Positions 30,241-62,799 of a stretch of 64,000 nt of DNA are shown here, piece by piece (the first letter of the stretch is position 1; every line of letters starts with the position of its first letter). The DNA comes from Lactiplantibacillus brownii (GTDB lineage: Bacteria; Bacillota; Bacilli; Lactobacillales; Lactobacillaceae): assembly GCF_031085375.1 (NCBI RefSeq), contig NZ_JAVCWF010000001.1, positions 682,001-746,000 of the forward strand. The letters are read 5' to 3'. Made by a program: the position numbers and the translations under genes. The notes beneath the pieces were generated by a model. That model was not told the origin of the DNA, did no database searches, and was given only the letters and a program-made list of their open reading frames with translations.

Positions 30241-31173
30241 ATGTCATACGCCAGTGAAGTTAAAAAAGAACTAACCAACCTCGCTGTCCATCGCGAGAAT
30301 GCGAAGGCTGAACTAATGGCCTTGATTCGAATGAACGGGACGATTAGTTTAGCTAATCATCACTTTATTTTGAATATTCAGACGGAAAATCCGGCCATCG
30401 CGCGGCGTATTTATCGGTTATTGAAGCAATTTTATGATGTGGCCAGTGAGTTGATCGTACGTCGCAAAATGAAATTGAATAAGAATAACTTATATATCGT
30501 GCGCCTAAAAACGGGGACGGACATGGTTTTGGCAGATCTGGGGATTCTCAAAGATCTGCAGATTGTGGAAGTCGCCCCGACTGAGGTTTTGACGGATGAT
30601 GCAGCTGTTCGTTCGTATTTACGCGGCGCATTTTTAGCTGGTGGCTCGGTCAACAATCCGGAAACTTCACGATATCATTTGGAAATCTATTCACTGTATG
30701 AAGAACATAACAAAATGATTTCCCAAATGATGAACAATTATGGGCTGAACTCACGTACGACGGATCGTCGTGGTGGGTTTATCACCTATATCAAGGAAGC
30801 CGAAAAAATTGCAGATTTCTTATCGTTAATTGGCGCGACAACGGGAATGTTAAAATTCGAAGATGTCCGTATCATGCGTGACATGCGAAACTCGGTGAAC
30901 CGGTTAGTGAATTGCGAAAATGCGAATATGGATAAGGTTGCCAATGCGTCCAGTCAGCAGATTGAAAATATCATGTTGATTGATGCTACGGTGGGCTTAA
31001 AACAATTGCCAATCAAGTTACAAGAGGTTGCGATTGCGCGTTTAGCCCATCGGGAAGTTAGCCTGAAAGAGCTTGGGACTTTAGTGCCGGGTGGGCCAAT
31101 TTCCAAGTCGGGAATCAATCACCGGTTACGGAAAATCAACCAATTTGCTGCCCAGCTACAAAAGGATGCCTAG
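30241..31173 (+). CDS. whiA: WhiA, sporulation-regulator-family DNA-binding protein
   Basis: 310 residues: LAGLIDADG-homing-endonuclease-like N-terminal domain ([12 protein letters not shown]) and C-terminal helix-turn-helix ([13 protein letters not shown]). In Firmicutes WhiA acts in cell division and chromosome segregation. Last gene of the operon, ended by a strong terminator. Confidence 0.95.
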
Positions 31174-31188
31174 TGCTAAAATAGTTTT

Positions 31189-31222
31189 AAAAAAAGTTTG
31201 GACCAATTGTCCAAACTTTTTT
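31189..31222. terminator. Terminator after whiA
   Basis: AAAAAGTTTGGAC-caatt-GTCCAAACTTTTTT, strong and usable on both strands. Confidence 0.88.
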
Positions 31223-31232
31223 AGTTACCCGT

Positions 31233-31773
31233 CTAAAGGTTGAAAGACTCAAAAGCATCACAAATGTTGTAGTACCGGTAACCCATAAGTAAAGTAGACT
31301 CACCTAAATTTAGTGCTCCGTCAGTCAAAATCGGTGTGCTGTGGGGGACGGCGCCAGCCAAGGTACGGTCTGACGCCTCAATTCCAAGCCGACAAAACAC
31401 GTCTTTGAATTGCCCCGCGAGATTAGTCAGCAAAGAACGCCGATTAATCTCGCCGACACTGCACACCGATTTTGACTGACTCCGCTAAGCATAAATAACT
31501 ACTGACTTAGCTGGAGGTTGTTGCTGATAGCATCGGACGTGCAGGTAGTGTTTGACCGGCGTTCTTTTGCCGGCCTTACACCACGGACGGTCCGGGAGAT
31601 TTGCGGCTTTGGCAAAGTTTCCGGGCGAGGTTCAAGACGTTTCTATGGCTTGAACCGGTCCCTCGTCCGCATGTTATCGGCAACAACCGGAAGCGGCAGT
31701 AGTCGACTAGTTTTCATTACCGGATTGTTGAGGTAGTGGTGCAGACCGGCAATTTTTAACTTTCAACCTTTAG
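31233..31773 (+). ncRNA. Large, ornate structured noncoding RNA candidate (~540 nt)
   Basis: No credible gene lies here, but nested complementary segments do. Closing helix P1 is CTAAAGGTTGAAAG/CTTTCAACCTTTAG (31233-31246/31760-31773). Inside it P2 is CCGGTAA/TTACCGG (31275-31281/31717-31723). Inside P2, domain 1 has a perfect 20-bp helix (31320-31339/31461-31480) extended by GTG/CAC and CGGCG/CGCCG, and domain 2 has a 24-bp helix with one bulge (31516-31539/31664-31688). Many local hairpins occur, e.g. GGTTCAAG/CTTGAACC and CCGGC/GCCGG. Two T-G pairs in domain 2 pair only if the plus strand is transcribed. Size and plan resemble the ROOL/GOLLD class; membership is unproven. Confidence 0.6.
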
Positions 31774-31783
31774 TTACTCGTGA

Positions 31784-32455
31784 TTAATGGGCTAGTTCAT
31801 AACTTGTTTGTAAAAATTGCAATAAGTCAGTGTCGGGGATACTGCCGTCTAGGATGACGGTGAACCAATGTTGTTTGTTCATGTGGTAACCGGGGAAAAA
31901 GGTTTGATTATCAATGAGTTGGTCGTGTTGTTTGGCGGTTAACCGAAAATCGACGATGGTTACGAGATCGTCGCTGTCTAAACCAAGCTTACGTTTAGAG
32001 ATCTTCATCAATAACGCATACCATTTTTTGGTGTCACTACGACGCCAAATTGCGTTCTCTGGGAATTTTTGCCAGAGAAATTCGAGTTCGTCGCCATAGT
32101 TTTTGCGACAAGTCTGGATGAGTAAATGTGCTTGCGTCGTTTGAAAAATATCGGTCTCAAAACTCTCAGTAGCGATAGTCTTTAGTACGTTAGTATAAGC
32201 TTCACGAACTTTGGCCACAAAGTCCCCGGTATTGTTGGCATTGAGGTGCAACGTGTAAGGTTGTTTGGTTTCGTTGTCAATCAGCTCAGTGAGAATCGTG
32301 TCAGGTAAGGTGACGGTAACAGTCAAGGTAAAGGCTTGGTTTAATAATGGTTGCTGCCGGACAAACTGCTGACCTCGTTTTTGAAAACCAGTTTTGAGCA
32401 AGTTTTCAGTTTTAGCACGCTTGTTTTTGAAAATTAATTTAGCAATATTATCCAT
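31784..32455 (-). CDS. MmcQ/YjbR family protein
   Basis: 223 residues. The C-terminal half shows the MmcQ/YjbR (CyaY-like fold) pattern: WRRSDTKKWYALLMKI, LTAKQHDQLI, and FPGYHMNKQHWFTVILDGSIPD. The N-terminal ~100 residues form an extra domain of unknown role. ATG at 32455 (6 nt after GGAGGA) is preferred over the ATG at 32461, which touches the site. Ends 10 bp from the structured RNA region, convergent to it. Confidence 0.7.
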   Translation of the reverse strand: MDNIAKLIFKNKRAKTENLLKTGFQKRGQQFVRQQPLLNQAFTLTVTVTLPDTILTELIDNETKQPYTLHLNANNTGDFVAKVREAYTNVLKTIATESFETDIFQTTQAHLLIQTCRKNYGDELEFLWQKFPENAIWRRSDTKKWYALLMKISKRKLGLDSDDLVTIVDFRLTAKQHDQLIDNQTFFPGYHMNKQHWFTVILDGSIPDTDLLQFLQTSYELAH

Positions 32456-32562
32456 TTTCATTCCTCCAATGAATGGTACTTTAGGTCTAGTCTAGACGCT
32501 ATAGTGGTCAGAATTCAACTGGATTTTTTGGAATTAATTTAATTGTGTCCCAAATAAATCAC

Positions 32563-34692: not shown

Positions 34693-35220
34693 ATGACTAA
34701 ATATAGCAGTAAATTTAAAGCTAAGGTGGTTCATGAATATTTGGATGGGGGGATTGGATTAAATGAATTACAACAAAAGTATCAGATTGCCCGGCATAGT
34801 ACTGTTTCTTCATGGGTAAAACGTGCTCAAGTTCATGGTATGAGTTCACTAAAAGTAAGTCATCATCGTAACAAGTATTCACAGGATTATAAGATAAGCG
34901 TGGTAGACTATATTCAAACTCACGAGATCAGTCGTAACCAAGCCGCAATTCACTTTGGAATTTCCAGTAGCCAGGCTAATAGTTGGATGAAAATTTACCA
35001 GGAACAAGGTGTGGCTGGATTGCGTCCTAAACCTCGTGGAAGAAGGTCAACCATGAGTAAACATAAGAATCAAAACCGCTCCCCAAAACGATTAACCGCA
35101 ACTAAAGAGGAAAAATACAAACAACAAATCACTGAATTAAAGCGGCAACTGCACAACGCTGAATTGGATCGTGACATTTTAAAAACACTAGCGACCATAA
35201 CCAGGAAACAACCAAAGTAA
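34693..35220 (+). CDS. IS3-family transposase OrfA (helix-turn-helix subunit)
   Basis: 175 residues with two helix-turn-helix repeats (YSSKFKAKVVHEYLDGG and YSQDYKISVVDYIQTHE starts) and a C-terminal Leu-zipper-like helix (KQQITELKRQLHNAELDRDILKTL). A slippery heptamer T-TTA-AAA at 35178-35184 would allow -1 frameshifting into the orfB frame, which is open from about 35177, to give the OrfAB transposase. Confidence 0.85.
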   Translation: MTKYSSKFKAKVVHEYLDGGIGLNELQQKYQIARHSTVSSWVKRAQVHGMSSLKVSHHRNKYSQDYKISVVDYIQTHEISRNQAAIHFGISSSQANSWMKIYQEQGVAGLRPKPRGRRSTMSKHKNQNRSPKRLTATKEEKYKQQITELKRQLHNAELDRDILKTLATITRKQPK

Positions 35221-35258
35221 AAGCTAATATTGTCTCTAAGTTACGGTCGCGATATCCG

Positions 35259-36080
35259 TTGAAGGAACTACTACGCAAGCTTAAATTGCCTAGAGCGACT
35301 TATTATGACCGTTTAAAGCGTAACCACAAACCTGATAAATACGCTAAGGTCAAACATTTTATTCGACAGGAATATGTTAATTCTGGAGCCAGCTATGGTT
35401 ATCGACGTATGCATAAAGAGGCCATCGATGCTGGATTCACGTATTCCGAAGAAACAATTCGAAAAATCATGACCGATATGGATCTTAAAGTGACCTTATT
35501 CTCCAAACATACTGGCAAATATAGCTCCTATAAGGGGACCGTTGGTAAGATTGCGCCGAACTTGCTCAAACAAAAGTTCAACGCCACCAAGCCTTTAACT
35601 GTCTTGCACACTGATGTAACCCAAGTGGCACTATATAATGGTAAATGGAGCTATATCTCAGTCATTATTGACGAAGCCAGTAAGGAAGTGCTCTCAGCAG
35701 TGACAAGTTATTCACCTAATAAGAAGCTAATCAAAGCGACCTTAAGGACAGCCCAAAAGCATATTCCAAATGATCTTCACCCAATCCTCCATTCCGACCA
35801 AGGATGGCAATATCAAATTCCTGGTTATCAATCAAAGCTCAAAGAAATGGGCATTATTCAAAGCATGTCCCGAAAAGGGAATTGTCATGATAACGCACCC
35901 GTAGAGAGTTTCTTTAGTCTACTTAAGCGGGAGTGTTTGAACCAATACAAGATCAAGAATATTACCGAATTACGCGGTATCCTAAACGCTTATATTGAAT
36001 GGTTTAATCATGATCGAATTTCAATGAAGACAAAAGGCTTAAGCCCTATAAGTTACAGGACTCAAGCCTTAGCAGCATAA
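35259..36080 (+). CDS. IS3-family transposase OrfB (DDE catalytic subunit)
   Basis: 273 residues from the first ATG; in the frameshift product the frame is entered upstream. HTH_21-like N-terminus (PRATYYDRLKR), then the rve integrase core with DDE residues in VLHTDVTQV, HSDQGWQY and PVESFFSLLKRE. Appears intact, so the element may be active. Confidence 0.88.
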   Translation: MKELLRKLKLPRATYYDRLKRNHKPDKYAKVKHFIRQEYVNSGASYGYRRMHKEAIDAGFTYSEETIRKIMTDMDLKVTLFSKHTGKYSSYKGTVGKIAPNLLKQKFNATKPLTVLHTDVTQVALYNGKWSYISVIIDEASKEVLSAVTSYSPNKKLIKATLRTAQKHIPNDLHPILHSDQGWQYQIPGYQSKLKEMGIIQSMSRKGNCHDNAPVESFFSLLKRECLNQYKIKNITELRGILNAYIEWFNHDRISMKTKGLSPISYRTQALAA

Positions 36081-62243: not shown

Positions 62244-62370
62244 TCCGTCTCCGTGAACCAGCACGTTTGCTGCGAGGCAACCCTGCAGCCAAAGAACGGT
62301 CTGCAGGGCGAAATCCACGTTTTAAAAGTCAGCCAGACATTAACCTGGGTAAGCTCACCCAGCTAAGTGT
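62244..62370 (+). ncRNA. Structured RNA element, copy 2 (right border of shikimate island)
   Basis: Same order of motifs as copy 1 (54628-54732): TCCGTCTCCG, CAGCA-cgtt-TGCTG, CCCTGCAG/CTGCAGGG around loop CCAAAGAACGGT, then AGCCAGAC, a CTGGGT-aagct-c-ACCCAG hairpin and CTAAGTGT. About 22 nt longer because of inserts in the 3' half. Starts 29 bp after the MFS stop. CAGCAAACG (62378-62386) could re-pair with CGTTTGCTG (62264-62272). Confidence 0.65.
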
Positions 62371-62487
62371 CTCGACACAGCAAACGAGCTGGTCCACTCC
62401 GACGTTAAATCGCAATTTAACAAAGAAACAGTGATAAATCTAGTATCAACGAAAGCTCGATTGATATTGGGCTTATTGATTAATTCA

Positions 62488-62525
62488 GGCGTCATTAATA
62501 CGGAGAGGTATTAGTGACGTTTTTT
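62488..62525 (+). terminator. Terminator downstream of structured RNA copy 2
   Basis: CGTCATTAATAC-ggagag-GTATTAGTGACG with one G-U, then T6. Between 62371 and 62487 a GTTAAAT-cgca-ATTTAAC hairpin and TATCAA/TTGATA are visible but no gene. Confidence 0.85.
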
Positions 62526-62603
62526 GATATTTGGAAATGAGTACCAAGTTTGACTGGAGGCTTGCTAGCAATCAATGTTAGGAAGGATTAATTAGCGCAG
62601 GGC

Positions 62604-62733
62604 GGGCTGGAAGAGGCTCAGTGGTGAAATTTCTCTTGGCTGGTGGGATTTTCCAGCCTAGAAGAAAGCTCGGCTTGTGAGACCGACCTTTGGCTCACAA
62701 ACGTGGCCACCACGTTCCAGCGTCTTCCAGCCC
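62604..62733. repeat. Inverted-repeat-rich, three-way-junction-like segment
   Basis: Closing stem GGGCTGGAAGA/TCTTCCAGCCC (62604-62614/62723-62733), inner GTGGTG/CACCAC (62621-62626/62708-62713), hairpins GGCTGG/CCAGCC (62638-62643/62653-62658) and TTGTGAG/CTCACAA (62675-62681/62694-62700). No credible coding frame. Could be a structured RNA of either strand or a small non-autonomous repeat (MITE-like). Confidence 0.5.
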
Positions 62734-62799
62734 AACCGAAGCGGGAATCGGAACAGCTCTTGCAACTATTGGTACGATGCTGGAATTAATCAATGGCAC

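Follow-up and report, generated by a model that had tools for sequence, protein, structure and literature searches.

In the 64,000-nt stretch of Lactiplantibacillus brownii DNA analysed here (the window), a 541-bp element to which no strand was assigned (positions 31233–31773) lies between whiA (30241–31173, plus strand; Pfam WhiA_N, LAGLIDADG_WhiA and HTH_WhiA) upstream and a YjbR-family gene (31784–32461, minus strand; Pfam YjbR), named MmcQ in the original prediction, whose end is 10 nt from the element. The limits of the element were evident from its repetition in blastn comparisons and from its terminal inverted repeats (TIRs), CTAAAGGTTGAAAG at 31233–31246 on the plus strand and the repeat that pairs with it at 31760–31773 on the minus strand, and target-site duplications of 8 bp, differing at one position, were noted on the left (TTACCCGT, 31225–31232) and on the right (TTACTCGT, 31774–31781). 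Enclosed are two structured units, unit A of 177 nt (31313–31489), whose own strand is minus, and unit B of 189 nt (31507–31695), whose own strand is plus, both indicated by covariation and by covariance model R3, which scored them at 130.9 bits (E 3.9e-38) and 176.7 bits (E 5.8e-52), respectively. The ends of an inner element were located on the plus strand at 31311–31324, a diverged counterpart of the TGCCGC..CGGTT end near which likeness stops in other genera, and at 31685–31698, the position of the right end motif AACCGGAAGCGGCA. A hairpin with a 14-bp perfect stem and A and T tracts (31190–31222) stands 3' of whiA with the element just beyond it; judged by eye it is a possible bidirectional terminator. 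A consensus scan did not call this hairpin a terminator and returned neither a promoter-like site nor a terminator from 31150 to 31850. The window also contains a second, diverged pair of units, the left at 62246–62406 on the minus strand (64.9 bits, E 3.8e-18) and the right at 62591–62744 on the plus strand (53.7 bits, E 9.4e-15), and, roughly 2.2 kb past the YjbR gene, a two-ORF insertion sequence (34693–36080; HTH_28/HTH_Tnp_1 and rve) that we take to be of the IS3 type.

The helices described in the original prediction, in which this region was read as one giant noncoding RNA, were all found in the sequence: a perfect 14-bp closing helix (31233–31246/31760–31773), a 7-bp P2 (31275–31281/31717–31723), a domain A helix with arms at 31320–31343 and 31457–31480 (96% over 24 nt) and a domain B helix, ungapped at 31516–31533/31671–31688 and with one bulge in the full fold, together with the T-G pairs 31525/31679 and 31530/31674. 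RNA folding gave –233.7 kcal/mol (z –9.9) for the plus strand and –229.5 kcal/mol (z –8.9) for the minus strand, values reached by 0 of 100 shuffles in either case. Since folding was about equal on both strands, energy alone cannot choose the plus strand. Two small ORFs inside the element, of 77 aa on the minus strand and 72 aa on the plus strand, were open in only 3 of 17 and 13 of 24 copies, respectively, when copies aligning over at least 80% were counted from 36 loci. The region is thus apparently non-protein-coding, as had been proposed, and a protein gene at 31233–31773 was rejected because the small ORFs are not conserved.

Blastn comparison of the element with its own genome returned 27 matching pieces corresponding to 19 places, 11 of them near full length; the other 8 persist as partial or internally deleted copies. 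The 14-bp TIR pair, allowing up to two mismatches, was present at 17 of the 19 places; target duplications were therefore counted over these 17 copies, two places being without a TIR pair. A scripted comparison of flanks indicated exact duplications of 7–9 bp at 10 of the 17, duplications with one mismatch over 7–8 bp at four, the window copy included, and none at the remaining three. The TIR pairs and flanking duplications at these copies identify the closing helix as a terminal inverted repeat, and the element is assigned with high confidence to the non-autonomous transposable elements of the MITE kind. By a crude call that left out ORFs overlapping an element, the nearest ORFs around 18 copies were convergent in 6 cases, tandem in 10 and divergent in 2.

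A search of the same genome with the end sequences returned one pair 1567 bp apart (C1:64426–65992), enclosing a gene for an intact 457-aa DDE transposase (NF049925, IS4 family, E 5.9e-138; Pfam DDE_5). The ends of this insertion sequence, CTAAAGGTTGAAAC and CTAAAGGTTGAAAG, agreed with the TIR of the element at 14 of 14 bases at one end and 13 of 14 at the other, and a flanking 7-bp repeat, ATAGGAG, was noted by eye. The IS4-family insertion sequence is thus very close to the outer ends of the element in its TIR and in its duplication length, but differs from it in carrying a transposase and in lacking the structured unit. Relatives of the transposase, down to weak and broken matches, were present in 7 of 21 genomes of the genus, that of L. 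brownii included. In four genomes (G008, G018, G020 and G011) the relatives had these ends on both sides, with no more than a few mismatches, and on one side the likeness to the window element extended a few bases past the TIR; the transposase gene was broken in G018 and G011 and contained a stop in G020. A second relative of the transposase in the L. brownii genome (L338) had no such ends, and no transposase match was found in three unit-rich genomes of the genus (G009, G014 and G017). From this anatomy we infer that the element would be mobilised in trans by the IS4-family transposase.

When the site downstream of whiA was compared among 21 genomes of the genus, the element was found only in that of L. 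brownii, which indicates a lineage-specific insertion. At the same site, one genome (G011) carried another element, of 330 bp, with a single unit and similar ends (L313), and a second genome (G008) carried a sequence that by eye resembled a remnant and fell below the model threshold, while a third (G015) had a unit pair elsewhere in its locus.

The relationship between the two domains was evident from a covariance model of domain B, which matched domain A on the opposite strand with 65.8–83.3 bits in six copies from the genus. A and B are therefore homologous units, lying on the minus and the plus strand of the element, respectively. A long helix closes each unit, which further comprises a hairpin at the side and a short helix with two hairpins; an AGAC/GGCU motif common to both inner hairpins was seen directly, and fixed letters recur in the junctions and loops. 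The cores of 36 copies, 11 from the L. brownii genome and 25 from other genomes, were aligned. When 20 chosen sequences were aligned without structure for each of the two domains, compensatory changes were noted at 28 of 62 and 33 of 58 pairs. The covariation scores were 0.289 and 0.275, as opposed to shuffle means of 0.141 and 0.116, and slid partners reached no more than 0.085 and 0.067, the structures tested having come from these same alignments. An alignment of 41 units from 30 loci in five genera, which was fitted to the model, showed compensatory changes at 59 of 62 pairs, pairing in 93.6% of cells and a score of 0.703, against 0.197 for shuffled alignments and at most 0.121 for slid partners. 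The expectation that homologs would covary was thus borne out at many pairs, and with it the view of the region as a structured element with strong covariation. A pseudoknot suspected to join the third hairpin loop to the 3' flank was discarded, complementarity being 10.92 for matched and 11.29 for shuffled partners in the 143 usable units of 149. We regard the unit, with medium to high confidence, as a conserved fold, a structured element so far unlisted and unusual in its twin arrangement.

The arrangement of units was examined in 71 of 80 loci among the matches listed, nine loci from outside Lactobacillales having been dropped, namely seven from Pseudomonas and two others without a match. 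The Pseudomonas loci, which came from a pattern scan, gave weak matches of about 90–120 nt in six of seven cases; in three of the six both strands matched over a single stretch, and in a fourth nearly so. These loci were judged to be unrelated palindromes. In the 71 named loci, 149 units were recognised among the matches listed at E values up to 1e-8. Of these listed units, neighbours less than 700 nt apart were divergent in 52 of 53 cases, the exception being a same-direction pair, and none was convergent; removal of one near-duplicate left 51 of 52 distinct neighbouring pairs divergent. Again among the matches listed, the gap between paired units was between 14 and 540 nt long, 45 units lacked a divergent partner within 700 nt, and in the L. 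brownii genome 18 of 19 pairs were divergent.

In Furfurilactobacillus, Companilactobacillus and Secundilactobacillus, likeness was seen by eye to end close to TGCCGCTTCCGGTT and to the complement of this sequence, immediately beyond the units. This boundary in three other genera identifies the IS4-type ends of Lactiplantibacillus as an outer layer around an inner element, which also occurs in other genera without those outer ends. No target duplication longer than 2 bp was detected for the inner element of other genera in the 22 usable of 64 pairs, and no autonomous form of it was found at the few places examined. Among the candidates for such a form that were rejected, units 2–2.4 kb apart enclosed host-type genes or, between a minus and a plus unit in Companilactobacillus nantensis (L233, 5801–7850), a reverse transcriptase ORF presumably of the group II intron type, and two same-direction units enclosed an ORF that we take to be Fic-like.

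The unit is conserved as a structure with fixed loop letters across the Lactobacillaceae genomes sampled, matches to model R1 having been obtained in 59 of 301 genomes and 10 of 40 genera. Model R3 matched 39 of 395 genomes of the order, spread over 17 of 80 genera. Of these genomes, 17 belong to other families, their best scores being about 23–55 bits; several of these other-family sequences visibly shared the core of the unit, and from such weak matches it is probable that the unit occurs in more of Lactobacillales. In a sample of the class, R3 matched 2 of 398 genomes, both within the order and one of them that of L. brownii. These large samples were searched with strict filters and only 6–8 candidates scored per genome. 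Among the matches listed (80 of 120), the hosts were species of Lactiplantibacillus, Furfurilactobacillus, Secundilactobacillus, Companilactobacillus and Levilactobacillus. Counts per genome in ten chosen genomes, which are lower bounds because 150 candidates were scored in each, ran from 1 to at least 150, the latter in four genomes. The L. brownii genome held at least 108 units, a figure that is too low since the second window pair (62246–62744) was absent from the whole-genome list. A second subfamily in this genome (L170–L189) comprised several dozen R3 matches of about 73–99 bits; by eye, its aligned copies had a second unit-like sequence to the left in opposite orientation, and they occurred with or without an insert of about 130 nt, reminiscent of BOX modules. 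In a genome from another family (G392; locus L160, 1501–1701), where six candidates were scored, five relatives of 201 nt had equal scores and one more was present, which suggests recent mobility in that genome.

If only double-stranded DNA mattered, G-U and A-C cells would be expected in equal numbers. Counted on the outward strand of each of the 149 units among the matches listed, they stood at 414 to 226, in an alignment that was fitted to structure and may thereby add to the lean towards G-U. Within these matches the ratio was 151:70 for left units, 148:90 for right units and 115:66 for unpaired units; distinct units alone (148) gave 412 against 224, and 99 units leaned to G-U as opposed to 19 to A-C. 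In single-stranded DNA, G-T is likewise better than A-C, so that the strand bias is no proof of RNA. Taken together, covariation, divergent pairing and the G-U excess on the units' own strands suggest that the folded molecule is probably a single strand of about 185 nt, most likely RNA, and not one giant plus-strand RNA. Each unit seems to fold independently on its own outward strand, a reading that these data support short of proof. The plus-strand preference that had been proposed on the basis of the T-G pairs is supported for domain B, whose own strand is plus, but not for domain A, whose own strand is minus.

The proposed kinship with ROOL and GOLLD as a giant single-copy RNA was not upheld, the element being a dispersed repeat with TIR ends in which domain A repeats domain B on the minus strand. 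An Rfam search, ROOL, GOLLD, OLE and raiA included, returned no family at gathering score except tRNAs; the unit is absent from Rfam 15, and the seven sub-threshold matches, none of them to these four families and all far below the cut-offs, were mostly on or near the whiA hairpin. A further search gave no match. As far as the available part of one account goes, ROOL, GOLLD and OLE share with this element a large elaborate fold, and GOLLD was named for Lactobacillales (PMC12286853); they are each one large RNA, whereas the present element is repeated and mobile, has two units of about 180–190 nt and lacks an Rfam match. A link to phages was rejected, since the window copy had no blastn match in phage records and viral contigs had no match to exact patterns, tests that cover close relatives; a plasmid origin was rejected for want of a blastn match.

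Bacterial MITEs mobilised in trans by an insertion sequence (PMC10969869) resemble the element in having a TIR, a 7–9 bp duplication, several copies and a partner insertion sequence with nearly the same TIR but no transposase gene. The body of the present element differs in being not an internally deleted insertion sequence but a pair of multi-branched, covarying units common to several genera. The BOX repeats of Streptococcus pneumoniae and S. suis are likewise high-copy, modular and folded, with a TIR and target duplication, some being co-transcribed with genes and some variants bearing inserts, while a multi-branched unit and divergent pairing are absent from the available part of the BOX description (PMC3049150). 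Homology to BOX, suspected from motifs, gained no support from model R3, which had no match in the 13 genomes of genus g43 (probably Streptococcus) among those listed. The Efa-1 repeat of Enterococcus faecalis is also named EFAR. It is an intergenic repeat of 163 bp with 65 copies and folds predicted on both strands and, in contrast to the unit, is described as a pair of adjacent stem-loops (PMC2267715). In open-access literature, covered through titles and the openings of abstracts, no such repeat was described in Lactobacillaceae. Elements of the REP or IS200-IS605 type have a Y1 transposase, single-strand hairpin ends and no target duplication. This type was ruled out for the window element by the target duplications and the DDE partner; unlike the window type, the inner elements of other genera showed no target duplication in the 22 usable pairs.

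As an explanation of the whole, we consider it likely that the locus holds a non-autonomous transposable element with IS4-type TIRs, the body of which consists of two divergent units that each seem to fold as a single strand, most likely RNA. The 14-bp TIRs would let the separate IS4-family transposase, encoded in the same genome, mobilise the element with target duplications of 7–9 bp. The divergent pair would make the element blind to direction, such that whichever strand is transcribed across the whole of it, the later half of the transcript would contain one unit in the sense orientation. The element and the end of the minus-strand YjbR gene are 10 nt apart, so that transcription of this gene probably runs into the element in the minus direction; as the nearest terminator-like hairpin, identified by eye, lies on the far side of the element, the YjbR message probably includes the element with unit A in sense. 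At the window site, therefore, the strand most likely transcribed would be the minus strand, as a 3' UTR of the YjbR gene. The sense unit may form a compact domain able to bind a factor or to shield the end of the transcript, or it may serve transposition; as a folding unit it would allow intergenic insertions to be tolerated, and the fold would be maintained by selection. Any stated function for the unit is held with low to medium confidence.

A single plus-strand RNA of about 540 nt, for which the nested helices and the strong plus-strand fold speak, is very improbable given that domain A is a minus-strand unit, that the closing helix is a TIR, that the unit occurs alone in a 330-bp element and that the gap between paired units among the matches listed varies from 14 to 540 nt. 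The folds might instead act as single-stranded or cruciform DNA, the units being large hairpin ends recognised in transposition or replication and RNA being irrelevant. The short motifs just outside the units at which likeness ends in three other genera, the divergent orientation typical of transposon ends and the good folding of both strands are consistent with this, yet in Lactiplantibacillus the units lie inside the TIR, which is that of an insertion sequence whose ends show no unit, and the one-unit 330-bp element (L313) has similar ends. Cruciforms alone would, moreover, give no bias of G-U over A-C, and the conserved letters of junctions and loops are more like a folded RNA than a DNA end, so that we judge a role as DNA ends unlikely.

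Also unlikely, in our estimate, is that the element is a plain selfish MITE, the fold being a palindromic by-product, the folded strand functionless and the covariation the outcome of hairpin-templated repair or of a few diverging sources. Internal deletions in copies of the L. brownii genome would fit such an origin, as would the strong folding of MITEs and BOX repeats, the latter being called parasitic by their authors in the part of their report available (PMC3049150). Against it, units from the five genera aligned all retain a multi-branched fold with fixed loop letters, and matches extend to 10 of 40 genera; templated repair perfects single hairpins, and would leave the kept junction letters and the strand bias unexplained. 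It is a serious though still tentative possibility that the unit represents a new class of structured RNA with a molecular partner of its own, a divergent twin carried on unrelated transposon ends and spread through Lactobacillales as a mobile RNA module, not a degraded transposon.

The rule that neighbouring units are divergent (51 of 52 distinct pairs among the matches listed) provides a sharp, testable prediction. A covarying unit present in 59 of 301 sampled family genomes, some of which have over 100 copies, was missing from both Rfam 15 and the literature searched. Either a high-copy RNA, together with whatever partner it has, has escaped notice in bacteria of industrial importance, or folded strands help small transposons to persist in compact genomes.
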